Positions 3,935 to 15,308 of a stretch of DNA of 64,000 nt are shown here, one piece after another. Made by a program: the position numbers and the translations under genes. Each line of letters begins with the position of its first letter. Within the stretch, counting starts at the first letter, position 1. Under the pieces are notes generated by a model, which was not told the origin of the DNA, did not search any database, and was given only the letters and a program-made list of their open reading frames with translations. Origin of the DNA: Empedobacter brevis NBRC 14943 = ATCC 43319 (GTDB taxonomy: Bacteria > Bacteroidota > Bacteroidia > Flavobacteriales > Weeksellaceae); NCBI RefSeq assembly GCF_000382425.1, contig NZ_KB908292.1:248001-312000 (forward strand), given 5' to 3'.

Positions 3935-4831
3935 TTGAAAGACATCAAATTATTGATTGCCATAAGTATCGTTGCCATTGTTTGGGGAACGACTTTTCTT
4001 GGAATTCGAGTAGCTGTCGAAACAATTCCGGGATGGTTTGTCGCAGGAATTCGCCAATTTATTGCTGGCATTATCATGTTTATTTTACTTCTTTATAAAA
4101 AAGAATTAAAATGGATCGGCTGGAAAAATTTGTCTTATCAGCTTATTTTTTCTTCTTTAATGCTAATTGCCGCAAACGGTTTAACAACAGTTGCTGAAGA
4201 AAATTTATCAAGTAGTCTGGCTGCCTTAATTAGCGCTACTTCTCCTATTCTCGTTTTTTTAGGAAGTATTTTTATTGGTCTTCAAAAATTTAGTTTCAAA
4301 GGGTTAATTGGTGTCTTGATGTGTTTTTGTGGAGTTTTATTTATTTTTTGGGATGGATTACAAGAATTAGCAAATCCCGAATTTAGAACAGGAATTCTTC
4401 TTCTTTTTTGCGCCATAACAGGTTGGGCTACCGGAACAATTTTTACTAAAAAAATGAATATTCAATCCAAAAATATTTCTCTCAATCTTTTTTATCAATT
4501 TATATTCGCCGGAATTATTCAAATTATTTTTGCTTTCATCTTTAGTGACAATTATAACTTTGGAAATTGGAGTACAAAAAGTATTTCAGCGATGCTTTAT
4601 TTAGCTGTTTTTGGTTCTGTTATTACCTTTTTCTCCTTTCATTATGCTTTAACCAAGATCTCTCCGATACAAGTTTCAATTTTATCCTATTTCAATACAA
4701 TTATCGCGATTGTCTTAGGTTGGTTAATATTAGATGAAGAAATTTCGAAAAAATTCATAGTAGCAACCATTCTTATTATTTGTGGCGTTTTTATTACAAA
4801 TTATAAACCGGAAATATTTAAGAAAAAGTAA
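3935..4831 (+). CDS. EamA/DMT-family permease
   Basis: A 298-residue protein with ten predicted membrane helices in two EamA repeats. The first opens with IVAIVWGTTFLGIRVA, the second with TGWATGTIFTKK, and both have the pore-lining helix pattern of the drug/metabolite transporter superfamily. Substrate is unknown. The start codon is TTG at 3935; no in-frame ATG lies close upstream. The last 133 bp of the gene (4694-4826) occur again at 11616-11748, on the far side of the bacteriocin island, so the 3' end of this gene is the point where that island entered. Its C-terminus reads KPEIFKKK, against KPEMFKKRII in the second copy. Confidence 0.9.
   Translation: MKDIKLLIAISIVAIVWGTTFLGIRVAVETIPGWFVAGIRQFIAGIIMFILLLYKKELKWIGWKNLSYQLIFSSLMLIAANGLTTVAEENLSSSLAALISATSPILVFLGSIFIGLQKFSFKGLIGVLMCFCGVLFIFWDGLQELANPEFRTGILLLFCAITGWATGTIFTKKMNIQSKNISLNLFYQFIFAGIIQIIFAFIFSDNYNFGNWSTKSISAMLYLAVFGSVITFFSFHYALTKISPIQVSILSYFNTIIAIVLGWLILDEEISKKFIVATILIICGVFITNYKPEIFKKK
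4694..4826 (+). repeat. Direct repeat, copy 1 (3' end of EamA gene)
   Basis: 133 bp starting AATACAATTATCGCG and ending TTTAAGAAAA. It is repeated at 11616-11748 with a constant offset of 6922 bp and one visible mismatch (A at 4816, G at 11738). It forms the left border of the peptide-export island. Confidence 0.95.
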
Positions 4832-4864
4832 ACTTATCCGTTGTATGAAACTTAATGGTTATTC

Positions 4865-5725
4865 TTAATAATTATTTTTATTATCATACTCTTTTAAAAT
4901 ATCATAAAAGTCCTCCTTCGAAATTCCATTCTTAGAGTTTAATTTTATATCGATTATAAAATCCATCTTATTTCTCTTCTGATTTGATATTGTATCAGCT
5001 ATATGATTGATAGAAAATTGTGACACCTGTATTTTATAAATTTTACTACCAACAGAATCAACAAAAAAATTTTGATTATCTAAATTATTGTAGTCATAAT
5101 ATTCTATGGTTACATCATAATTATTGGTAGTTTTTACATACGGCTTTTCAAAATAACTAATACAAAAGGGAATTATAGTTGCTAATATATTCCAAATTAT
5201 ATGTGAAAAAATAGCAGAAATAAAATTGAATTTAACTCTTAAGAAAGTATACAGATACCCCCCTATAATTTGGCTTCCTACCAAAATAGGAGATAATAAT
5301 ATTAATTTTAAATCAATATTTCCGTAATTCGAAAGGTGTACTATTCCAAAAATAAAAGGAATTAGATAAACTATATATGGAAATATTTTATTCCAAATAG
5401 ATCTTTTAATAAAAAGGGAATAAAACGTATTAAATCTTAATGGCAACCTAAAAATTAATTCCTCAATAACAGGTATTATAAAAGCCGTTATTATTATTGT
5501 ATGAATAAAGGTATTATCTTTGTATTCAATTTTTGAAAAATCTTCTGGTAAAAATTTTTGCTCACTTATATAATATAAAAATGGAAATATTATTATAAAA
5601 ATTACTAACTCTAACACTATCGTTAGTCCAATAAATTTAGTATTTTTTAACAATGTCCCTCCTAAATATTTACTATCCTTTGGTGTTTTGTAGAAATAAA
5701 ATAATTCTCTTATATATTCTTTCAT
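4865..5725 (-). CDS. CPBP-family intramembrane glutamic protease (possible immunity protein)
   Basis: A 286-residue multi-spanning protein with all three motifs of the CPBP/Abi (CAAX protease and bacteriocin-processing) family: EExxxR at E88-E89-R93, FxxxH at F126-H130 and HxxxN at H175-N179. The intact motifs predict an active intramembrane protease. After the last helix (about residue 195) there is a soluble tail of roughly 90 residues, which is unusual. It is the last gene of the peptide-export operon; its start overlaps the TolC-like gene by 4 bp. Abi proteins in Gram-positive bacteriocin loci serve as self-immunity or processing factors, so immunity is the best guess here (inference). 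Confidence 0.8.
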   Translation of the reverse strand: MKEYIRELFYFYKTPKDSKYLGGTLLKNTKFIGLTIVLELVIFIIIFPFLYYISEQKFLPEDFSKIEYKDNTFIHTIIITAFIIPVIEELIFRLPLRFNTFYSLFIKRSIWNKIFPYIVYLIPFIFGIVHLSNYGNIDLKLILLSPILVGSQIIGGYLYTFLRVKFNFISAIFSHIIWNILATIIPFCISYFEKPYVKTTNNYDVTIEYYDYNNLDNQNFFVDSVGSKIYKIQVSQFSINHIADTISNQKRNKMDFIIDIKLNSKNGISKEDFYDILKEYDNKNNY

Positions 5726-7122
5726 CTATCACTTGTATAAACTTCTATCATTTTTAATTTTAGAAGGTTTTTAATTTTAAGATTCGCTAATTCTGTTATA
5801 TTCGCAATGTTATCGTATCTCGATTTATTCAAGTCGTATAAATTTATCACTCCTGATTGGTATGCAATGAAAGACATATCATAGACTTCTTTAGAATTAA
5901 GCACTTTTTCTTCAGAAATTTTCATTAATTCTATACCATTATTATACATAAGTATTTCATTCATGATTAACTTATAAAGATTATTTTCTTCATTTAGTAA
6001 TACATTTTTTTGTTTTTCTTCATTTAAATTGGCTTGTAGTATAGAAGATTTCATTGAATACTCATTCAAAATAGGGATAGATATTCCAATTCCAATTCTA
6101 TTCGTAAAATTATTTTTCCATTGGGTCAATAATGGGTCGTTTTTTATTAAAGTCTCTAAAGATCCTATATAATTACTTCCTATAGAATAAAACCCAAAAA
6201 TTTTAGGTTTAAGCCTATTCTTAAGAAGTTTTGTTTCATACTGTATAGAAAAAAGATTATTTTTTTCAGCTAATAATGAGGGATAATCTGAGATCGTTTC
6301 TTTTATAGTTTCTTCTGTATATAAAATGTTACCAAACATAACATTTGATAAATCTTCTGAAAGTTCTATATTATGTATTTTGTAATCTTTCTGCAAAAAA
6401 TTGATCAAATTAAAAATTGATAATTCTAAATTCATTCTTTTTTCGGCCAAATCAAAAATAGCTGAATTATATTCTTGTTTTACTTGATTTAATTCAAATT
6501 TCGTTATTACTCCTACCTTATACTTTTTTTGTGTTATATTAAATAAATCAATAATATTTTTAACATTATTATCTGAAATTTTCAGAATTTCATTATTTAA
6601 CAAAGCTTCAAAATATAATTCGTTCAAACTAATAATAATCTTATTCTCTATATCTAATGATTTATAAATAGATGCATTATTGTCAAGTCTACTTTTCTCT
6701 TTTTTTATTTTAAGAGAATTATAATTATAAAGCAATACATTTGTCTCTAAACCAAACTCATTTTTATATTCAGAATACAATCTATTAAAATGTTCCTTGT
6801 GATTGTGATTCTCTGTGCCTGCTTCGTGAGAATTAACATCTGAATGGAAATATATTTCATCTAAATCATGATTATGTGAATATAAATTGTAATAATTATT
6901 AAAATAAGCATTTATATTTGGTATCCAATTTTTTTCAGCTTCTCTAATTTTTTCTTCTGACACTTTTATATCTATTCTAGAGTTTTTAATAATATAATTG
7001 TCGTTTTTTACTATATCAATACAATCTTGTAATGAAAGCCTAATTTTATTCTCTTGAGCACTTACATCAATTATTAATAGTAAAAAAAAAGAAAGTACTA
7101 ATTTAAAATTTGTTTTTGCCAC
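5722..7122 (-). CDS. TolC-family outer-membrane channel of the peptide exporter
   Basis: A 466-residue protein with a signal peptide (MAKTNFKLVLSFFLLLIIDVSAQ region, residues 1-22) and two OEP-type coiled-coil repeats, including KKYKVGVITKFELNQVKQEY and, in the second repeat, AYQSGVINLYDLNKSRYD. These are the helix-turn segments of TolC proteins. A His/Asp/Asn-rich loop occurs at about residues 68-95 (SHNHDLDEIYFHSDVNS, NHNHKEH), which could bind metal but is of unknown use. It overlaps the ABC gene by 25 bp upstream and the CPBP gene by 4 bp downstream. It would provide the outer-membrane exit for the secreted peptides. Confidence 0.88.
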   Translation of the reverse strand: MAKTNFKLVLSFFLLLIIDVSAQENKIRLSLQDCIDIVKNDNYIIKNSRIDIKVSEEKIREAEKNWIPNINAYFNNYYNLYSHNHDLDEIYFHSDVNSHEAGTENHNHKEHFNRLYSEYKNEFGLETNVLLYNYNSLKIKKEKSRLDNNASIYKSLDIENKIIISLNELYFEALLNNEILKISDNNVKNIIDLFNITQKKYKVGVITKFELNQVKQEYNSAIFDLAEKRMNLELSIFNLINFLQKDYKIHNIELSEDLSNVMFGNILYTEETIKETISDYPSLLAEKNNLFSIQYETKLLKNRLKPKIFGFYSIGSNYIGSLETLIKNDPLLTQWKNNFTNRIGIGISIPILNEYSMKSSILQANLNEEKQKNVLLNEENNLYKLIMNEILMYNNGIELMKISEEKVLNSKEVYDMSFIAYQSGVINLYDLNKSRYDNIANITELANLKIKNLLKLKMIEVYTSDR

Positions 7123-9251
7123 AATGAATAATATTTACCTTTAGCTTCAATTAGTTTATTATGATCCCCCTCTTCCATTAAACTCCCTTTTTCAATAACA
7201 ATTATTTTATCAGAGTTCATAACTGTACTTAGTCTATGTGCAATTACTATTAAAGTTTTATTCTTATTTTTAAAATTTTGTAATGCTTTTTGTATAAAAA
7301 TTTCTGATTCAGAATCTAATGAAGATGTGGCTTCATCTAATATTAAAACTTCTGGATCTTTATACAGAGCTCTTGCTATAGCAATTCTCTGTTTTTGTCC
7401 TCCTGATAAAAGAGCTCCATCCTCTCCTAAGTGTGTCTGAAACCCATTAGGTAGCTCCTCTATAAAATTTAATATACCAATGGATTTACTTATAGAAATA
7501 ATTTTTTCCATATCAGGAAAATCTTCCCCTAATGCTATATTTTCAATTACGTTTCCTGAAAATAGGTTGATTTTTTGAGGAACAGTAGCAACAATTTTTC
7601 TTAAAGAATAATTTGAGATATAATTCAGATCATAATCTCCTATTAAAATTTTCCCCCCTTTTAATGGATATAAGTTTTGCAACAAATTAGAAATGGTACT
7701 TTTCCCTGATCCACTTTCTCCTACAATAGCAGTAATCTTACCTTTTTCAAAAGAGCATGAGAAATTTTCAAAAATTTCTTTTCTTGTTCCATACGAAAAG
7801 AAAATATTATCAATTTTTATATTTCCTATCCTATCAACAGTAATATCAAATTTTTCTGTTGCCTCTTCTCTTTCCAAATCCATAATCTCAAATAATCTAT
7901 CAGAAGCTATTAATGCACTCTGAATTATTTTATTTGAATTAACTACTGAACTCATTGGTCCTGTCAAGAAGCCTATTAGAGTATAAAAAGACAACAACTC
8001 TCCTGCTGTAATTTCATTATTTATAACAAAAAAAGAACCAGACCATATAATTATTATAGTGAAAAATTTAGATACAAAATCTGTTGAATTGGTACTAAAC
8101 AACGAATTTTTAACAGATTTATAAATAGTTGAAAGTAAATTAGAAAAAAGATTATCTGTTTTATTTTTTTGATAATTTTCTATGCCAAATTGTTTGATAG
8201 TTTTTATTGAATTTAAAGATTCTACCAACTGACTTTGTAAATCAGCTGCATTTTCCATCAACTCTCTTTCAACTTTTTTATTTAATTTATTCATTACTAA
8301 ATAAATTATAAAATATAGTGGCAAAGTAATTAACATTATTAAGGCTAATTTCCAATGATAAGTAAACATCAAAGCAAAAGAAAATATAATAGTAAAAAAA
8401 TTCACAAACAATTCAATAGATACGTCATTTATAAACGTTCTTATCTTTACTGCATCATTAATTCTTGATGTTATTTCTCCTATTTTCATTGTGTCAAAGA
8501 AACGCTGTGGTAGATCTAATAAATGTTTATAATAACCGAGTATTAAATGCTTATCAATCTTTTGCCCTGTTTCAAATATGTATATATCTTGTAAATACCC
8601 CATTAATATTTGAAAAAATAAAACGATTAGCATTCCTACTGATAATAGGTTTAATAATCTAGTATTCCCATCTATAAGTACATAATCTGTTATTTTTTGT
8701 ATATATATAGAAGTTGATAAACCTAAGATAGTTATAACTATTGCTCCTAATAAACATTGAGTTAATATAGATTTATGTGGTTTTATTAAATTCCAAAACC
8801 TACTATAATTACTTTTCTTTTCATTTCTTTCTTCAAAATATTCATTCTTTTCCAATAAAATTAAAACTCCAGTCCATATTTTATTAAAATCTGAAAAGCT
8901 ATCTTGAACTATTTCTCCATATTCAGGGTCCATGTAGATAACTTTATTTTTTTTTATTTCATATATGACTACATAATGGTGTAATACTTCATCCTTTATT
9001 ACATGTGCTATTGCTGGTAATGGCACATGTAGTAAATTCTTTTCTTCAGTTTTTACTCCTTTTGCCTTAAACCCCATTTTTTCTAAACCTACAACTAGCC
9101 CTAAAGCATTTGTTCCTCTAGTATCAGTGTGGCATAGCTGTCTAATTTTAGCTATTGGTAAAAAAAGATTATAATATGCTCCTATTGAAGCTAAACACGC
9201 AGCACCACAATCTTTGAAATCATGCTGTTGTATTAAAATTTCTTTCTTCAT
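7098..9251 (-). CDS. Peptidase-containing ABC transporter (C39 PCAT) for double-glycine peptides
   Basis: A 717-residue protein in three parts. Residues 1-140 are a C39 cysteine peptidase with Q9, C15 (DCGAAC), H92 (HHYVVI) and D108 (MDPEYG). Residues 160-450 are a six-helix ABC exporter domain. Residues 480-717 are the ATPase with Walker A GESGSGKST, signature LSGGQKQR and Walker B VLILDEATSSLD. This family removes a leader after Gly-Gly and exports the core peptide. All catalytic residues are present. The three small GG-leader genes upstream on the same strand are its evident substrates. It overlaps its neighbours on both sides (ATGA with the HlyD gene). Confidence 0.96.
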   Translation of the reverse strand: MKKEILIQQHDFKDCGAACLASIGAYYNLFLPIAKIRQLCHTDTRGTNALGLVVGLEKMGFKAKGVKTEEKNLLHVPLPAIAHVIKDEVLHHYVVIYEIKKNKVIYMDPEYGEIVQDSFSDFNKIWTGVLILLEKNEYFEERNEKKSNYSRFWNLIKPHKSILTQCLLGAIVITILGLSTSIYIQKITDYVLIDGNTRLLNLLSVGMLIVLFFQILMGYLQDIYIFETGQKIDKHLILGYYKHLLDLPQRFFDTMKIGEITSRINDAVKIRTFINDVSIELFVNFFTIIFSFALMFTYHWKLALIMLITLPLYFIIYLVMNKLNKKVERELMENAADLQSQLVESLNSIKTIKQFGIENYQKNKTDNLFSNLLSTIYKSVKNSLFSTNSTDFVSKFFTIIIIWSGSFFVINNEITAGELLSFYTLIGFLTGPMSSVVNSNKIIQSALIASDRLFEIMDLEREEATEKFDITVDRIGNIKIDNIFFSYGTRKEIFENFSCSFEKGKITAIVGESGSGKSTISNLLQNLYPLKGGKILIGDYDLNYISNYSLRKIVATVPQKINLFSGNVIENIALGEDFPDMEKIISISKSIGILNFIEELPNGFQTHLGEDGALLSGGQKQRIAIARALYKDPEVLILDEATSSLDSESEIFIQKALQNFKNKNKTLIVIAHRLSTVMNSDKIIVIEKGSLMEEGDHNKLIEAKGKYYSLWQKQILN

Positions 9252-10333
9252 TTTCCTAAATTCGGATTGAACCAGTCATCTACATTATCAAATAACAGTT
9301 GCCAAATAGTTCTATCTAACAAATAAAAACGAACATTTACAGTCATTCCCTTTTCAATATTAGCTTTATATCCATTCTTTAACTTTAAGAATTTTTTATC
9401 CATAGAGCAAAATACTATAAAGTATGGCTCATTAGTTTTTTCATCATACGTTATATTTTTTTGAATCTCTATTACTTTGCCTGATAACAATCCCCATTGA
9501 TTATAATTATATGTGTCTACTTGTACTTTTATAGACTGTCCTTTCTTTATAAACCCTATATCTTTAGGAGAAACTCGCGCTTCTATTACCAAAGTACTTT
9601 CAGGAGATATAATTCCTACCTGTGTTCCTGTTGTAATATAATTTCCTACCTGTATTCCCGAATAGTTTATTAATCTACCATCATCAGGACTTTTAATGAT
9701 GTAATTGTCAAGTTTTTTATTTGTTGTATTTACTTCTTTTCTATTCTCTCTAATTATTCTTTCTAACTCCCTTTTTTCAATTTGCCATGTAGCAATCTGC
9801 TCTTGTTTTATATTTCCTATTTGTCTCTTTAAGTTTTCAACTTTAAATGAATTTTTATCATATTCTGCTTGAGTATAAATACCAGCATCAAATAACTTTT
9901 TAACTCTTTCAAAATCTCTTGTTGCTAAATTAAGTTCCGATTCTATTTGTGCAATCTTCTCTCTATAAGCGCTAACTTGTTTTTGATAAACACCTGTATT
10001 CAAATCATTTAACACACCTTTAGATAAACTTATTAAATCCTTCAACTGAGAACTAAAGTCTGTATATTGAGTATTTTGAAATTGATTATATTCTTCTAAT
10101 TGATCTGTATTAATTTCAATTATTGTATCACCTTTTTTAAAAAATTGATTATTTCTAATAACATTAGATTTAATTATTTTCCCTTCAACCATAGAAATAA
10201 TAGGATTATTATTTTTTAAATCATTTACTATCCCATAAGATGTTGCAGATATGGGGACCTTAATAAACGGTAATGAACAAAAAACCAAAAGAAATAATAC
10301 AACTATAGACGTATAAACATGTAAACCTCTCAT
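9248..10333 (-). CDS. HlyD-family periplasmic adaptor of the peptide exporter
   Basis: A 361-residue membrane-fusion protein: one N-terminal helix (about residues 7-28), a lipoyl half (MVEGKIIKSNVI), a long alpha-hairpin of about residues 85-210, then the second lipoyl half and beta-barrel domain (IKSPDDGRLINYSGIQVGNY, ARVSPKDIGFIKKGQSIKVQ). It links the inner-membrane ABC exporter to the TolC-like channel. It overlaps both neighbours by 4 bp (ATGA), as expected for tight translational coupling in one operon. Confidence 0.93.
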   Translation of the reverse strand: MRGLHVYTSIVVLFLLVFCSLPFIKVPISATSYGIVNDLKNNNPIISMVEGKIIKSNVIRNNQFFKKGDTIIEINTDQLEEYNQFQNTQYTDFSSQLKDLISLSKGVLNDLNTGVYQKQVSAYREKIAQIESELNLATRDFERVKKLFDAGIYTQAEYDKNSFKVENLKRQIGNIKQEQIATWQIEKRELERIIRENRKEVNTTNKKLDNYIIKSPDDGRLINYSGIQVGNYITTGTQVGIISPESTLVIEARVSPKDIGFIKKGQSIKVQVDTYNYNQWGLLSGKVIEIQKNITYDEKTNEPYFIVFCSMDKKFLKLKNGYKANIEKGMTVNVRFYLLDRTIWQLLFDNVDDWFNPNLGK

Positions 10334-10521
10334 TCTATTTTTTTCTTCTCTTTTCTTACTAGTAATAATATACCTATAAGTAACAGCGATAATAGTAAAC
10401 GCGGTATAGATATAGGGAACTCAAATGAAAAAACTCTTAATGGCTCATAATTTTCTCCTAAATAAAAAAAAATATGAGGTAATATTAATACTAGTATTAT
10501 ATATATGTGTGTTTGTCTCAT
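10330..10521 (-). CDS. Small two-helix membrane protein of the peptide-export operon
   Basis: A 63-residue protein with two hydrophobic helices (about residues 6-22 and 38-55) and a basic end RKEKKKIE. I do not recognise a family. It is the first gene after the precursor peptides, separated from them by a hairpin, and it overlaps the HlyD gene by 4 bp. Size, topology and position fit a bacteriocin immunity protein, but an accessory export role is equally possible (inference). Confidence 0.6.
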   Translation of the reverse strand: MRQTHIYIILVLILPHIFFYLGENYEPLRVFSFEFPISIPRLLLSLLLIGILLLVRKEKKKIE

Positions 10522-10531
10522 TTTAAAAAAT

Positions 10532-10556
10532 AAAAGTAGGATAGAATCCTACTTTA
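10532..10556 (-). terminator. Hairpin terminator/attenuator between precursor peptides and export genes
   Basis: A perfect 10-bp stem AAAGTAGGAT / ATCCTACTTT with a 3-nt loop, followed on the minus strand by a T-rich tract (TTTATTTTTT). It lies after the last peptide gene and 12 bp before the start of the 63-aa gene. Partial termination here would give many more peptide transcripts than exporter transcripts. Confidence 0.75.
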
Positions 10557-10582
10557 TTATAAATAGCTATATTATAAGGTTT

Positions 10583-10729
10583 TTAATCCCATAATTCATT
10601 CCAAGCATCTGTAATTTCATCAATTAGTAATGCATCTTTAATAGCTTTTCCTATTTTCTTACCAGTAGCTTTACATTTAGCACAACCTCCATCTATGTTT
10701 TGTAACTCCAATAATGTTAAATTTTTCAT
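10583..10729 (-). CDS. Double-glycine-leader bacteriocin-like precursor peptide 3 (48 aa)
   Basis: ATG at 10729, stop at 10583, 48 codons plus stop. The leader MKNLTLLELQNIDGG has the class II pattern (hydrophobic L4/L7, E8-L9, I12, G-G at -2/-1). Cleavage would release a 33-residue core that begins CAKCKATGKKIGKAIKDALL and ends in an acidic, Trp-containing tail (TDAWNELWD). The first residue of the core is Cys, forming a C-x-x-C pair. The leader is nearly identical to that of the neighbouring peptide at 10753-10893. Net composition is a basic N-half and an acidic C-half, suited to an amphipathic helix. Confidence 0.85.
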   Translation of the reverse strand: MKNLTLLELQNIDGGCAKCKATGKKIGKAIKDALLIDEITDAWNELWD

Positions 10730-10752
10730 AGTTTGTCTATTTTTATTAATTA

Positions 10753-10893
10753 CTAACCAAAAAGTCCATCATAAAGACCTTCCGCAAAATCTTTTACGTG
10801 ATTCCAAGCTTTTTTCACTGCTTTTCCTGCACTTTTACAAGTTGCACAACCTCCGTTTACTTCTTGTAACTCTAATAATGTTAAATTTTTCAT
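10753..10893 (-). CDS. Double-glycine-leader bacteriocin-like precursor peptide 2 (46 aa)
   Basis: ATG at 10893, TAG at 10753, 46 codons plus stop. The leader is MKNLTLLELQEVNGG. The predicted core of 31 residues begins CATCKSAGKAVKKAWNHVKD and ends FAEGLYDGLFG. It shares the C-x-x-C-K start and the G-K-A/I-K pattern with peptide 3, so the two are recent paralogues, but their C-terminal halves have diverged. That is the usual outcome for paired or multi-component bacteriocins. Confidence 0.85.
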   Translation of the reverse strand: MKNLTLLELQEVNGGCATCKSAGKAVKKAWNHVKDFAEGLYDGLFG

Positions 10894-10908
10894 AGTTTTA
10901 ATTCTTAA

Positions 10909-11064
10909 TTATCCTTCATTCCACCCATCAATAAAATCATCAACATGAGATTTGGCTGCTCTCCATAGTTTTTTAGCTCCTTTAACTATTGCTCCTATTC
11001 TACCTCCTCCTTCAATCTCTCTTAACTCACTAATGTTAAGCTCTTTAAAATTTTCTAAATTCAT
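10909..11064 (-). CDS. Double-glycine-leader bacteriocin-like precursor peptide 1 (51 aa)
   Basis: ATG at 11064, TAA at 10909, 51 codons plus stop. The leader MNLENFKELNISELREIEGG is longer than those of the other two and is followed by another Gly. The 31-residue core begins GRIGAIVKGAKKLWRAAKSH, carries no Cys and ends VDDFIDGWNEG. The alternation of small/hydrophobic and Lys residues and the Trp-containing, acidic end match the other two cores. It is the first gene of the peptide/export transcript, divergent from the XRE regulator. Confidence 0.85.
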   Translation of the reverse strand: MNLENFKELNISELREIEGGGRIGAIVKGAKKLWRAAKSHVDDFIDGWNEG

Positions 11065-11197
11065 AGTAATTATTTTTGATTTTTATTACGGTTACTAAAT
11101 AACTGTTTTTTTCAATGAATAAATATTCCATTTCGAATAAAATATTTCTTAACGAAGAATAACACTATTATAGTTTATTGCATTGTAAATATTTTTA

Positions 11198-11205
11198 TAC
11201 TTTTG
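11198..11205 (+). promoter_or_regulatory. Flavobacterial -7 element before the XRE regulator
   Basis: TACTTTTG (TAnnTTTG) lies about 22 bp before the ATG at 11227, with a TTG about 17 bp upstream (in GCATTGTAAAT). No such element was seen on the other strand for the peptide genes, which suggests that their promoter needs an activator or is non-canonical. Confidence 0.5.
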
Positions 11206-11226
11206 TGAAAAAACTACCTAAATTTT

Positions 11227-11508
11227 ATGAATACAAATGATTTTGGCTTAAAAATAAAAGCCTTAAGAGACTCTACTAATACTTCTCAAGAAGATTTAGC
11301 ATACGCTTTAAATATTTCGCAAAGTAAATTGTCTAAAATTGAAAGTGGAAAAGTAAAAAAAATAGATTTTATTTTAATGAATGAAATATGCAACTACTTT
11401 TCTGTTAACATTGAAGATATGATTTATAAAAGACCAAAAGAAATTATTTGGAATATAAGTAAATACATTAGTATAATATCATATTTTGATTATATCAATA
11501 TTCTTTAA
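11227..11508 (+). CDS. XRE-family HTH regulator of the peptide island
   Basis: A 93-residue protein whose first 62 residues form a Cro/C1-type helix-turn-helix (IKALRDSTNTSQEDLAYALN, ISQSKLSKIESGKVKKID). The Gln-Glu-Asp-Leu-Ala and Ser-xx-Ser-Lys-Ile-Glu-Ser-Gly signatures are canonical. The tail (residues 70-93, ISKYISIISYFDYINIL) is short and hydrophobic. It is the only gene of the island on the plus strand and is divergent from the precursor peptides with about 160 bp between starts, so it probably controls them. Its 3' end is close to the island border, so the tail may have been replaced at the junction. Confidence 0.82.
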   Translation: MNTNDFGLKIKALRDSTNTSQEDLAYALNISQSKLSKIESGKVKKIDFILMNEICNYFSVNIEDMIYKRPKEIIWNISKYISIISYFDYINIL

Positions 11509-11526
11509 ACTTAATTCCTATTAAAA

Positions 11527-11596
11527 AATAATCTCTAAAGAAATTCTTGTTTAGAGTATTACAGTGTATTTTGTTTTCAGGACACCCTGGAAAAAT
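11527..11596 (+). other. Two inverted repeats at the right edge of the island
   Basis: After the XRE stop codon there is an inverted repeat CTCTAAA / TTTAGAG (within 11530-11556) and a second hairpin TTTTCAGG-ACAC-CCTGGAAAA at about 11573-11594 (one bulged base) with short A/T runs. The second could terminate the XRE transcript. Both lie directly left of the second copy of the 133-bp repeat, so they may instead be an end of the inserted DNA. Confidence 0.4.
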
Positions 11597-11615
11597 ATTT
11601 GTTGTCTTGGAACTT

Positions 11616-11748
11616 AATACAATTATCGCGATTGTCTTAGGTTGGTTAATATTAGATGAAGAAATTTCGAAAAAATTCATAGTAGCAACCATTCTTATTA
11701 TTTGTGGCGTTTTTATTACAAATTATAAACCGGAAATGTTTAAGAAAA
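11616..11748 (+). repeat. Direct repeat, copy 2 (remnant of EamA gene 3' end)
   Basis: Near-identical copy of 4694-4826 (one mismatch). It is followed by a different ending (AGAATTATCTAA) from that of the intact gene. The open frame through it is a gene fragment with no start of its own, not an independent gene. It marks the right border of the island. Confidence 0.95.
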
Positions 11749-11816
11749 GAATTATCTAAAATTTTTATAACGCACAAATTTTCATATTTTTAACAAAATT
11801 TAACAAACCTAAAATT

Positions 11817-12324: not shown

Positions 12325-14331
12325 TTAATCTTTTATTCCGTTAAAAATATACTGTAAAATTGGATTAATTTCCGGATTTTCAAGGTGTTTCTTGAAAATT
12401 TTCGTGTAATATTTTGGTTTATTAATCATTTTACGTTCCACCAATTCGTCTATTGTATCAATGTATTCAACAGATGTTTTTCCAATCAATAAATTATCTA
12501 ATGATCTCCCTTGATCAACATAATTTAAAATTGTTTTCAACCCTTTTAAATAAAGTGCATCTTTTGTAAAACCTCCTCCGCGGTAGACACGAGTTGTTAG
12601 ATAAAAAGCGTCTTCAGGTTGCATTTTATATTCTTCCATTAAAATCATAAATGTTTCGTTGAATGATTTTCCGCTCGTTAACATATGTACAGCTATTACG
12701 CGCAATCCAAGCTCTCTTAATCGGCTATGATTAATAGAATCTGAATAATATTCACTTAAAATTGCCAGACCTTCCTGTGTTAACGTATTAACAGGTAAAC
12801 CAATGCTAAATATTTTCAATGGTTGATCCAACGAGTTCATTGTTGTCACCATGTGTACACCAATTTCGTGCTCAATTAAACCAGTTGTAAAGCGTTTATC
12901 AAATTTAACACCTCGTTTAATCACTACTTTTTTCTTACTGTTGATTACAAGTGCTTTTGAAGCAATATCATCAGAAACTTCTATATCAAATTTAAACCCG
13001 TAATCACTTGTTGCATTTCTAAAAAGATTCACGACTTCTTCTTCTGTATAATTTCCTTGTTTATCCATTCTAAACTCTGGGCAATACAAAATGAAATTTG
13101 CATTTTCGATGTCTTTTTTCGAAGGTTCCCCAAAGTAACGCAACGAATTGTATAAAAATTTATCGGTACCAAGATTGGCTAACAAATCTACTTTGTCAAA
13201 ATATGAATTTATCGTATCGACATACATATTTTGAATACTGATATCGTTTATCTTTTCAACCTTAATATTGGACAATTTTCTTTTAAACTCGAATGGATCA
13301 ATGTTCAAAGGATTGTATTTAAATTGAGGTTCATAAGTATATTTAGAAGCTAGGAATTTTTTCTTCTCAAATTCTAAATTAATAGGATTGATAACACTTA
13401 ACAACTCAAAGTTTTGAACCAATTGATACAATTGTTTATCAATTTTCACCAAATCTGACTCCAACTCATTGTGCAGAATGTTTACCTGTTTAGATCCAAC
13501 TTTATAAGTCGTTTCCGTTTTTACAAATTCAAAAGCATGATTAAGAATCGCAGATTTAAACCCTTCTTTTATTTGGTTGATAATTTCAGGAAAAGATTCT
13601 CCTGTTAGCTCATCACAATATATTTTAGAGACTTCAGTTGCCAGAACCAATGTATTCTTAAAATTAGTCGTCACAAATTCTAACAAATATCCACGACCAT
13701 AGAATACATCGTTTATCGCTGAATAATTGTGAATGTTTTCCAGCTCAATATTTGCTAATTCATCGCGCCAGCTTTCTACATATTTCCCGTAACGTTCATT
13801 GTCCACACGCTCAGAACCGATATTAAAAACAGGAACAGGTCTATCCCAACGTTTCCAATTGTACGAGTGTATATCATAAACCAAACATGATTTAAATTTC
13901 GATTCAAGTTTCTTAATCAAGGCTTCAAAAACTTCATAAAAAGCATGATGTTTCGCGATACTTTTTTGTTTTTGAGAAGTTGATAAAGGTTCTTTCCATA
14001 CTTGTTTTCCCCAAGCTTCTTCGTATACAGCAGTTTCAGGACCTCGGTTTAAATCATATTCAAAACGAGAATCACATCCTTGAATAAGAACAGGAAAAGT
14101 TTCGATAAACTCAGCAGTATGCGGATCTTCTTCATACCATCGCTCGTAATTACTCAACAAACATTTTTCGCGAATATCTTCACGCATCTGCCCGCCATCA
14201 TGAATTGCAGCGCAAACATAAGGAATGTATTCGTCAATTTTTATTTTGAATGATTCGTCTTCTGCATATGCTTCAAATACAATTTCGCTCTCAATGTTAT
14301 CTAAAATTTGCTGTATACTTAAGGTTTTCAT
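12325..14331 (-). CDS. Fused N-formylglutamate amidohydrolase-like / DUF1704 (QEGLA) metallopeptidase
   Basis: A 668-residue protein with two parts. Residues about 35-240 resemble N-formylglutamate amidohydrolase: a His-Asp-Gly-Gly site (AAIHDGG, 42-47), Asp/Arg pairs in GCDSRFEYDLNRG and YDIHSYNWKRW. Residues about 330-668 are DUF1704, annotated elsewhere as flavohemoglobin expression-modulating QEGLA protein; HExxxH is at 488-493 (HEIGVH) and QEGLA at 519-523. DUF1704 includes the animal tubulin tyrosine carboxypeptidase MATCAP, so a zinc carboxypeptidase activity is likely. Its start overlaps the ATP-grasp gene by 4 bp, so the two products should act together. The substrate is unknown. Confidence 0.85.
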   Translation of the reverse strand: MKTLSIQQILDNIESEIVFEAYAEDESFKIKIDEYIPYVCAAIHDGGQMREDIREKCLLSNYERWYEEDPHTAEFIETFPVLIQGCDSRFEYDLNRGPETAVYEEAWGKQVWKEPLSTSQKQKSIAKHHAFYEVFEALIKKLESKFKSCLVYDIHSYNWKRWDRPVPVFNIGSERVDNERYGKYVESWRDELANIELENIHNYSAINDVFYGRGYLLEFVTTNFKNTLVLATEVSKIYCDELTGESFPEIINQIKEGFKSAILNHAFEFVKTETTYKVGSKQVNILHNELESDLVKIDKQLYQLVQNFELLSVINPINLEFEKKKFLASKYTYEPQFKYNPLNIDPFEFKRKLSNIKVEKINDISIQNMYVDTINSYFDKVDLLANLGTDKFLYNSLRYFGEPSKKDIENANFILYCPEFRMDKQGNYTEEEVVNLFRNATSDYGFKFDIEVSDDIASKALVINSKKKVVIKRGVKFDKRFTTGLIEHEIGVHMVTTMNSLDQPLKIFSIGLPVNTLTQEGLAILSEYYSDSINHSRLRELGLRVIAVHMLTSGKSFNETFMILMEEYKMQPEDAFYLTTRVYRGGGFTKDALYLKGLKTILNYVDQGRSLDNLLIGKTSVEYIDTIDELVERKMINKPKYYTKIFKKHLENPEINPILQYIFNGIKD

Positions 14332-15308
14332 GCTTTAAATTCTTTATATCTCTCCAATAACATCGAAACAATTTGTTTTTGTATCTCCGTGTTATTGTTT
14401 ACATTATTGTGAGGAACAATTCCTCCGGGACTTACGACATTCAATTCAACCATTTTACCGTTAATCAAATCAATTCCGCAAAAATAGATTCCATCTTCAT
14501 TTAACTGTTTTCCTATTTTACGGCACAATTCTAATTCATGTTCATTCATATCATGTCGGATTGCAGAACCACCGGCTGAAATATTAGAACGATGATCACC
14601 TTCTGCAGGAACACGCATTATAGCACCAATTGGTTCTCCATTAATGACAATCGCACGAACATCTCCTTTTTCTGCTCCCTCTATATAATTTTGGCAAATA
14701 ATAGGTTGGGCATTTCCTGTATGGTTGATATAAAAATCGCAAATCGAGCTTAAGTTACCAATATTTTTTCGTTCAAAGAGTATAACACCTTTTCCTCCCA
14801 TGCCATCTAAAGGTTTGATGATAAATTTTTCAAACTTATTTTCTTCTACAAATGACCTGATTAAATCAATATCCTTTGTAATAAGTGTCTGAGGAACAAT
14901 CGTTTCTTCACCATCATCAAAAGATGCTGCATAGATTTTATTGTTTGCTTTACGTAAACCCGAAATTTTATTTACGAAGAATACTTTCTCTTCTATCAAT
15001 TCCAACATGTTTAGTAAAAGCGGATCAATAGGAGGATCTGCCCTCATAAAAATCATGTCAAACTCGGTCAAATCTTTTATACTACTTTCAAATTTCATGG
15101 TATGATAAAATTCAACACAATCTTCCGTTTCTGAAGTGATCATCTTTTTGCAGTTCCCTACAACTTTACCTTTGGCAATAGAGATATCTTTTTTTGTCAA
15201 ATAGGATACTTCAAAACCACGGTCTACGCATTCTTTGATAATTCGCATTGTGGTATCTTTACCTGGTTCAACCTTGTCCCAAGGATACATTACGAAGCAT
15301 ATTTTCAT
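14328..15308 (-). CDS. ATP-grasp ligase of the glutathione-synthetase type
   Basis: A 326-residue protein: pre-ATP-grasp domain (MKICFVMYPWDKVEPGKDTT), the lid and lysine loop FIIKPLDGMGGKGVILFE, and the Mg/ATP site near the end (GIYFCGIDLINGKMVELNVV, then SPGGI). This resembles bacterial GshB and RimK-like ligases, which join an amino acid to a carboxylate through an acyl phosphate. No gamma-glutamylcysteine ligase gene is nearby and bshC in this window points to bacillithiol as thiol, so glutathione synthesis is doubtful. It is translationally coupled to the amidohydrolase/DUF1704 gene, which suggests a ligate-and-cleave pair (inference). Confidence 0.85.
   Translation of the reverse strand: MKICFVMYPWDKVEPGKDTTMRIIKECVDRGFEVSYLTKKDISIAKGKVVGNCKKMITSETEDCVEFYHTMKFESSIKDLTEFDMIFMRADPPIDPLLLNMLELIEEKVFFVNKISGLRKANNKIYAASFDDGEETIVPQTLITKDIDLIRSFVEENKFEKFIIKPLDGMGGKGVILFERKNIGNLSSICDFYINHTGNAQPIICQNYIEGAEKGDVRAIVINGEPIGAIMRVPAEGDHRSNISAGGSAIRHDMNEHELELCRKIGKQLNEDGIYFCGIDLINGKMVELNVVSPGGIVPHNNVNNNTEIQKQIVSMLLERYKEFKA

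Follow-up and report, generated by a model that had tools for sequence, protein, structure and literature searches.

To our knowledge, few unmodified bacteriocins of Bacteroidota have been characterised. A tested example is provided by the bacteroidetocins, and the available part of the report on them (PMC6671954) describes bacteroidetocins A and B as having 42-residue cores with four cysteines and a thiol oxidoreductase gene, further members being accepted with at least two cysteines. In a 64,000-nucleotide stretch of the genome of Empedobacter brevis NBRC 14943 (hereafter the window) we analysed a module of approximately 6.8 kb that encodes three short peptide precursors, P1, P2 and P3. The phylum, a 15-residue double-glycine (GG) leader, a C39-ABC exporter and cysteine in the core are shared with the bacteroidetocins, as far as these are described in the accessible text of PMC6671954. 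P1 and P2 contain two cysteines each, fewer than the four of bacteroidetocins A and B and in agreement with the looser form of the definition, P3 contains none, and no adjacent thiol oxidoreductase gene was found among the module ORFs with Pfam and NCBIfam.

Lactococcin G relatives act on BacA/UppP (PMC12765074, in the portion available), and the group of lactococcin G, enterocin 1071 and enterocin C (NF038035, NF038034) has GG leaders, short helical cores, the GxxxG motif and paired genes in common with the locus. Unlike this group, the E. brevis module has a Gram-negative type I exporter and three peptides, two of which (P1 and P2) carry a CxxC. As far as is known, class II microcins use the chromosomal TolC. 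Those of Enterobacterales, according to the part of PMC9746304 at hand, resemble the locus in the GG leader, the C39-ABC transporter with a membrane-fusion protein and the immunity gene; in contrast to them, the module bears its own TolC and encodes, in three genes, cores of 31-33 residues. CdzC/CdzD of Caulobacter is likewise Gram-negative, a two-protein class IIb-like system with type I secretion and a small membrane immunity protein; the available text of PMC5380434 gives CdzC and CdzD as proteins of 84-86 aa with long hydrophobic glycine zippers, whereas the window cores are short and charged. As in class IIb, different peptides are encoded together, here by three genes; they are predicted to be unmodified, and no modification enzyme was found among the module ORFs (Pfam and NCBIfam).

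Organization of the module and signature of insertion

The original prediction described three adjacent minus-strand genes of 48, 46 and 51 residues with GG leaders, followed by a complete C39-ABC/HlyD/TolC exporter. All three genes were recovered (Table 1), with the transcription order P3-P2-P1, and the exporter is indeed complete; it does not follow immediately, as a terminator-like hairpin and an ORF for a 63-residue hydrophobic protein lie between. Two genes had gone unmentioned, those encoding a CPBP protease after TolC and a divergent XRE regulator. The module thus consists of the peptides, hairpin, 63-aa protein, HlyD, C39-ABC, TolC, CPBP and divergent XRE, and its eight operon ORFs, all open, overlap or are tightly spaced.

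Table 1. Features of the E. brevis module and its flanks (positions in the window).
Feature	Position	Strand	Description
133-nt direct repeat, copy 1	4694..4826	+	3' end of complete EamA gene (3935-4831)
CPBP/Rce1-like membrane protease	4865..5725	-	PF02517, 34.4 bits over 22.4
TolC-family outer-membrane channel	5722..7122	-	PF02321, 4e-30
C39 peptidase-ABC exporter, 717 aa	7098..9251	-	TIGR01193, 533.6 bits (cut-off 523.85); PF03412, 7e-35
HlyD-type periplasmic adaptor	9248..10333	-	PF13437, 8e-15
63-aa hydrophobic protein	10330..10521	-	overlaps HlyD start; two likely TM segments (by eye)
Terminator-like hairpin and T run	10533..10555	-	between peptide and export genes; z -2.11, 5/200 shuffles
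P1	10583..10729	-	48-aa precursor: 15-aa leader and 33-aa core starting CAKCK
P2	10753..10893	-	46-aa precursor: 15-aa leader and 31-aa core starting CATCK
P3	10909..11064	-	51-aa precursor: 20-aa GG leader and 31-aa core (GRIGAIVKGAKKLWRAAKSHVDDFIDGWNEG)
XRE-family HTH regulator, 93 aa	11227..11508	+	divergent from P3; PF13443, 4e-9
133-nt direct repeat, copy 2	11616..11748	+	leftover EamA 3' end, joined to native EamA-DUF805 spacer

The hairpin may be an attenuator; three terminator-like sites were found in positions 4600-11800, with 1.2 expected. A promoter scan returned 55 sites against 54.1 expected. The gap between XRE and P3 contains at 11121-11147 an imperfect palindrome, AAATATT..TTCGAA..AATATTT, noticed by eye, which could be a repressor site. 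Pfam matches of the XRE protein over cut-off are to HTH domains only. A reading of the module as a defence system was rejected: with PADLOC, HTH_VI and PDC-M69A matched the XRE protein and mad3 and mad8 the ABC protein, and none matched HlyD, CPBP or the 63-aa protein. Nor was a graspetide or radical-SAM RiPP system retained, as the genes at 12325-15308, which we take to be ATP-grasp and DUF1704-like, are situated outside the repeat-flanked module. Elsewhere in the same genome, two other C39 genes (on contigs C16 and C1, loci L001 and L003) adjoin ORFs that by eye are radical-SAM-like; these are probably separate RiPP systems.

The GC content of positions 4830-11615 is 25.3%, compared with 32.5% elsewhere in the window, and in 92 overlapping stretches of equal size from position 11616 onward the lowest value was not under 28.7%. 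The two copies of the 133-nt repeat differ by one mismatch. In a congener (G007) EamA adjoins DUF805, with neither the module nor a second repeat copy between, and repeat copy 2 of the window continues into the spacer that separates the two genes in that genome. HlyD (E <= 1e-20) was present in 2 of 14 genomes of the genus, the producer's own and one other (G002). The module looks like an insertion that duplicated the EamA 3' end or brought it along, and the cassette appears to have been acquired horizontally; scans of the module ORFs with Pfam and NCBIfam revealed no integrase. EamA itself stays whole despite the repetition of its 3' end, as with integration at the end of a gene. Plasmid origin was rejected, since 80% coverage of the module was reached by no plasmid record, and 95 match parts of it only; the partial matches listed (15 of the 95) fall under ABC-type genes or are unannotated, and the best ABC match on a plasmid has 60%.

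Precursor peptides and properties of their cores

The GG leaders of P1-P3 are beyond chance. When 934 ORF/start pairs of the window were ranked with a matrix of 21 leaders from other genomes, none of them from the window, P3, P2 and P1 took the top places with scores of 27.2, 19.7 and 17.8, the fourth being 9.4. The precursors thus combine a leader of hydrophobic pattern that ends in GG with an adjacent C39-ABC exporter, as double-glycine leader peptides exported by such transporters do. P3 passes a single family model, the 15-position leader model TIGR01847 (18.4 bits; cut-off 15.7). The near identity of the P1 and P2 leaders (MKNLTLLELQ...GG) claimed beforehand was borne out at the codon level, with 11/15 codons identical, one synonymous and three non-synonymous differences, but only 5/14 of the first core codons are identical; P1 and P2 look like a duplication with diverged cores. 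Both cores open with C-x-x-C-K and P3 is without Cys, again as predicted. The cores of P2 and P3 are 41% identical over 27 aa, a similarity that had escaped the original prediction.

A Lys-rich start and a Trp-bearing, acidic end had been ascribed to all three cores. The basic-to-acidic polarity is present in each of them, and the Trp-bearing end in P1 and P3; the sole Trp of P2 is mid-core, at residue 15 of 31. The difference in charge between halves was 12 (P1), 6 (P2) and 8 (P3), with shuffle p values of 0.00025, 0.034 and 0.011, respectively, and the joint polarity of the three cores, a basic first half and an acidic second half, was not reached in any of 20,000 shuffles. The helical hydrophobic moment is strong over a stretch of 18 residues in P2 (0/3000 shuffles) and P3 (p 0.0057), and less clear in P1 (p 0.087). 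AlphaFold2, run on P2 alone with no alignment, modelled the core as a single helix (residues 16-45, pTM 0.41). Each window core contains one strict GxxxG. A precedent for disulfides in two-peptide bacteriocins is gallocin A, described in the available part of PMC10100652 as forming helical hairpins, 42 and 60 residues long.

Relatives of the exporter and their peptides

HlyD relatives (E <= 1e-20) were found in 32 of 320 family genomes, own included. Of the 32 relatives elsewhere in the family, 28 have 44-53% identity and four 32-38%. All 32 of these places adjoin a C39-ABC gene whose product is 56-69% identical to that of the window, with the qualification that at one (L063) C39-ABC was matched in two pieces and that some contigs end nearby; a match to the window's TolC was near HlyD in 7/32. 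For the analysis of peptides we named the best 80 of 194 contig stretches encoding an HlyD relative, and scanned up to 3.5 kb upstream of HlyD with a matrix of 24 leaders, namely the three of the window and 21 of family loci overlapping these records. This revealed 95 leader candidates in the sense orientation against 4 in the antisense control. At least one upstream candidate is present in 49/80 named loci and none in 31/80, a count that is not independent of training, because the training leaders overlap the records (the antisense control being the check on this), and that may be too low, because GG peptides also occur downstream of the exporter (L119) and the scan covered the upstream side. 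Among the loci free of candidates, some are truncated by a contig end (L084, L085) and others are full-length stretches (L102, L105-L108), and zero candidates were found upstream in the Apibacter loci L093, L116 and L126. Peptides were borne by loci of Chryseobacterium, Epilithonimonas, Cloacibacterium, Capnocytophaga, Tenacibaculum, Zobellia, Sphingobacterium, Pedobacter, Dyadobacter and Bacteroidales. An XRE homologue on the opposite strand is located within 1.7 kb upstream of HlyD in 10/80 named loci, and in an eleventh at a distance of 6.6 kb.

In 12 of the named loci (L081-L083, L086, L090, L092, L095-L100) a peptide with a long leader, termed 'a', is encoded upstream of a second, termed 'b'. 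The order a-b-b' of L081 and L096 matches the layout of the window, where P3 with its 20-aa leader precedes P2 and P1, whose 15-aa leaders are nearly identical. At their C-terminal end the a-type cores carry a motif like W..DI.EGF.DG. The sorting, done by eye, relied on gene position, leader and motif; first or only peptides lacking the motif (e.g. L055/L087, L057/L091, L061, L065, L068/L089, L088) were left out of the a set, and L083a, first noticed as a match of P3, was included. GxxxG is present in 13/15 a-type cores compared with a shuffle mean of 6.1 (0/2000 shuffles reached 13), and is not enriched in b-type cores (8/13 against 6.7 by shuffling; 612/2000).

An HMM of the 15 a-type cores, none from the window, scored P2 at 15.0 bits (0/2000 shuffles), P3 at 9.6 bits (3/2000) and P1 at 0.7 bits (332/2000), and a narrower model of seven mutually similar cores gave 11.2 bits (0/2000), 3.3 bits (95/2000) and 0.3 bits (419/2000), respectively. 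With the b-type HMM (13 cores) the shuffle counts were 23/2000 for P1, 279/2000 for P2 and 186/2000 for P3. Judged by these models, the P2 core is a-type in its C-terminal half, an assignment that follows from the HMM scores of the core, yet leader and N-terminus pair P2 with P1. P3, in which the C-terminal motif is weaker, is probably a-type as well, and P1 is at best b-like, with uncertainty.

In direct searches, P2 gave no match outside its own genome at E <= 0.01 in 320 family genomes and was found only in its own among 14 genomes of the genus, and neither P2 nor P3 matched any plasmid. Within the fetched loci, weak relatives were found of P2 in L098 (E 0.001) and of P3 in L119 (3e-5; its best tblastn match, with 54% across the leader and the beginning of the core), in L051/L083 (about 1e-3) and in L111 (0.003). 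P1 was searched through a profile of P1 and P2 (A6) and in the fetched loci. In 395 genomes of the order A6 had matches in 29 genomes at E <= 0.1, own included; the best outside the own genome (9.6e-4, L172) was rejected as a short look-alike of P1, since it is a thioredoxin-like protein that carries GCAKCK. Among the 95 candidate cores from relatives' loci none has an N-terminal CxxC, so that the CxxC of P1 and P2 is unusual in this sample; CxxC occurs in one core (Cys-rich, L154) and a Cys start in one (L144). The features that are unusual here are the N-terminal CxxC on two cores and the basic-to-acidic polarity.

Several related loci encode peptides of other appearance. In Sphingobacterium puteale (L119, 12033-12315) tandem GG peptides with cores GKIGDAMRAAGELLIFLSNYF and GKIGVIMRTVGEILVSLSVYF lie 3' of TolC; they begin with GKIG and are followed by CPBP-like ORFs, and the second of the two is the P3 match mentioned above. 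At approximately 1 kb upstream of HlyD, Sphingobacterium loci L111-L113, L117-L120 and L127 have a short charged GG peptide (core of about 21-24 aa) beside a divergent XRE gene; this peptide may belong to a different class. In a single genome of Chryseobacterium potabilaquae, two loci (L094, L103) each hold four GG peptides in tandem, which do not resemble the a/b pair. The same exporter type is accompanied in Pedobacter and Dyadobacter (L136, L137, L143, L145, L148, L149, L153) by longer Gly/Ser/Leu-rich GG peptides, a further cargo class.

Candidate immunity proteins

According to the available part of PMC6957408, some immunity proteins of two-peptide bacteriocins are of the Abi type with EXXXR and FXXXH motifs, and others are small (42-55 aa). 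The window holds candidates of both kinds. Its CPBP protein has EXXXR, FXXXH and HXXXN motifs, which together with the PF02517 match place it in the CPBP/Abi family, and it is the probable immunity protein; the 63-aa hydrophobic protein is a candidate for the same role. The latter had no match in Pfam or NCBIfam and no homologue in the 80 named loci (E < 1). Ten CPBP-like ORFs between peptides and HlyD were chosen by eye from 18 loci, and eight of them exceed the PF02517 cut-off; the remaining two show weak similarity to the CPBP protein of the window (tblastn, 1e-4 and 9e-4). By eye, no CPBP-like ORF was seen upstream of HlyD in 7/18 loci. In the Capnocytophaga locus L100, a leaderless 43-aa ORF (about 6443-6574) ends in a near copy of the adjacent a-type core (LISVIEYPEAFKAGFLGR versus MISVIEYPQDFVDGLLGR), possibly a case of immunity by mimicry.

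Similarity to named bacteriocin families

The peptides had been described as not obviously related to named families. This holds insofar as the family cut-offs were missed. With NF038034, P1 and P2 score 13.2 and 15.4 bits against a cut-off of 37 and P3 is unlisted, and NF038035 lists none of the three. With the lactobin A/cerein 7B model TIGR03949, whose leader the locus has in common, P2 reaches 19.7 and P1 17.6 bits against 21.5, matches that are mostly leader, and P3 is unlisted. Bacteriocin_IIc (PF10439) gives 21.5 bits for P3 against 27.1 and lists neither P1 nor P2. Pfam MccV matched 2/10 peptides of set A4 (best E 0.0085). The related loci qualify the description: one a-type (25.5) and one b-type relative (21.8) pass the 21.5 bits of TIGR03949, and with NF038035, the lactococcin G-alpha model, a b-type relative has an E value of 6.9e-6 and 26.1 bits against a cut-off of 37. 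A core-only profile of nine b-type cores, none from the window, was compared with 177,635 PDB sequences, and its best match was lactococcin G-alpha (2jpj, E 0.0062), in two stretches of 11-13 residues each. The 'b' cores of related loci appear to resemble lactococcin G-alpha weakly.

The core-only a-type profile (10 cores) had zero matches in PDB. Plantaricin J (E 0.65) was discarded, as the a-type profile listed it only when leaders and window peptides were included, and it was gone with the core-only profile free of window peptides. The P1 and P3 cores had no PDB matches, and the sole match of the P2 core was a repeat in FtbJ (E 0.55), which indicates that W..DF..G..DG can arise in unrelated helices. 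In openly licensed literature, the matches listed by title included none on paired type I-exported bacteriocins of Flavobacteriales, and the main text of PMC11494933, in the part available, contains no words beginning with Bacteroid- or Flavobacter-.

Proposed mode of action and alternative explanations

We consider it likely that P1-P3 are a secreted, unmodified, class IIb-like multi-peptide bacteriocin with CPBP-type immunity, whereas the chance that at least two of the peptides cooperate is somewhat short of even. The HTH (XRE) protein would probably repress the divergent promoter. Once expressed, the precursors would be cleaved behind Gly-Gly, by the exporter's C39 domain, and the peptides would leave the cell through ABC-HlyD-TolC. 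The mature 31-33-residue cores are expected to be helical, the N-half being basic and the C-half acidic, and a P2/P3-type 'a' peptide may act together with a P1-type partner. The probable target would be a membrane protein of closely related bacteria, whose membrane would become leaky, and the producer would be shielded by the CPBP protease, the 63-aa hydrophobic protein, or both. A more specific version is improbable, namely a three-component bacteriocin that needs all three charge-polarised helices in an antiparallel bundle (basic N-halves to acidic C-halves), with the CxxC of P1 and P2 as a redox lock or an inter-peptide disulfide formed only outside the cell.

The likelihoods that we assign do not sum to one, because two of the alternatives overlap with the bacteriocin reading. 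One of these is a variant of it, in which P1-P3 are three independent one-peptide bacteriocins on one exporter; P2 and probably P3 both being a-type, P1 fitting no type convincingly, and the single candidate in some related loci (L087, L088, L091) would agree with this, but the a-upstream-of-b pair recurs in 12 named loci, and P1 and P2 have the leader and the start of the core in common and seem to be duplicates; we regard independence as unlikely. The other overlapping alternative would make P1 or P2 protective, as a mimic that does not kill and that keeps the active peptide from assembling. It has parallels in the leaderless ORF of L100 and in gallocin A, for which immunity by a peptide of similar fold has been proposed (PMC10100652, in the part available); both P1 and P2 bear export leaders, however, and should for that reason be sent out with P3, and we regard protection by mimicry as very improbable.

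The original prediction left the choice between a multi-component bacteriocin and a pheromone, and of the two the bacteriocin with its own C39-ABC/HlyD/TolC is the better supported. As secreted signals, the peptides would act on the divergent XRE protein and so control the island or some other process. The leader of P3 resembles those of ComC/BlpC, the XRE gene is divergent from P3, and an XRE gene beside a short GG peptide recurs in the Sphingobacterium loci. On the other hand, the ComC/BlpC matches are to the leader only and under cut-offs, the XRE protein is 93 aa long and exceeds cut-offs for HTH domains only, Pfam and NCBIfam revealed no sensor kinase in the module ORFs, and a signal needs less than three different helical cores and a CPBP gene; signalling is rather improbable. 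Least probable of all is a degenerate or unexpressed remnant. The GC of 25% and the recent insertion could be taken in its favour, but the eight operon ORFs are open and closely packed, and the one-base difference between the 133-nt repeats leaves little time for decay.

Hence the machinery of the module is of a known kind, and the peptide family is apparently uncharacterised. The related exporters with their highly varied GG-leader candidates point, by sequence, to a large class of probable narrow-spectrum weapons that has received little examination. From the paired a/b layout, two-peptide action across an outer membrane would be predicted, and the CPBP gene in the module makes it testable in a Gram-negative bacterium how CPBP proteins give immunity. 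If the three-component reading is true, paired bacteriocins exported by type I systems would form a family that extends across the Bacteroidota, with the E. brevis peptides as its first member to be studied.
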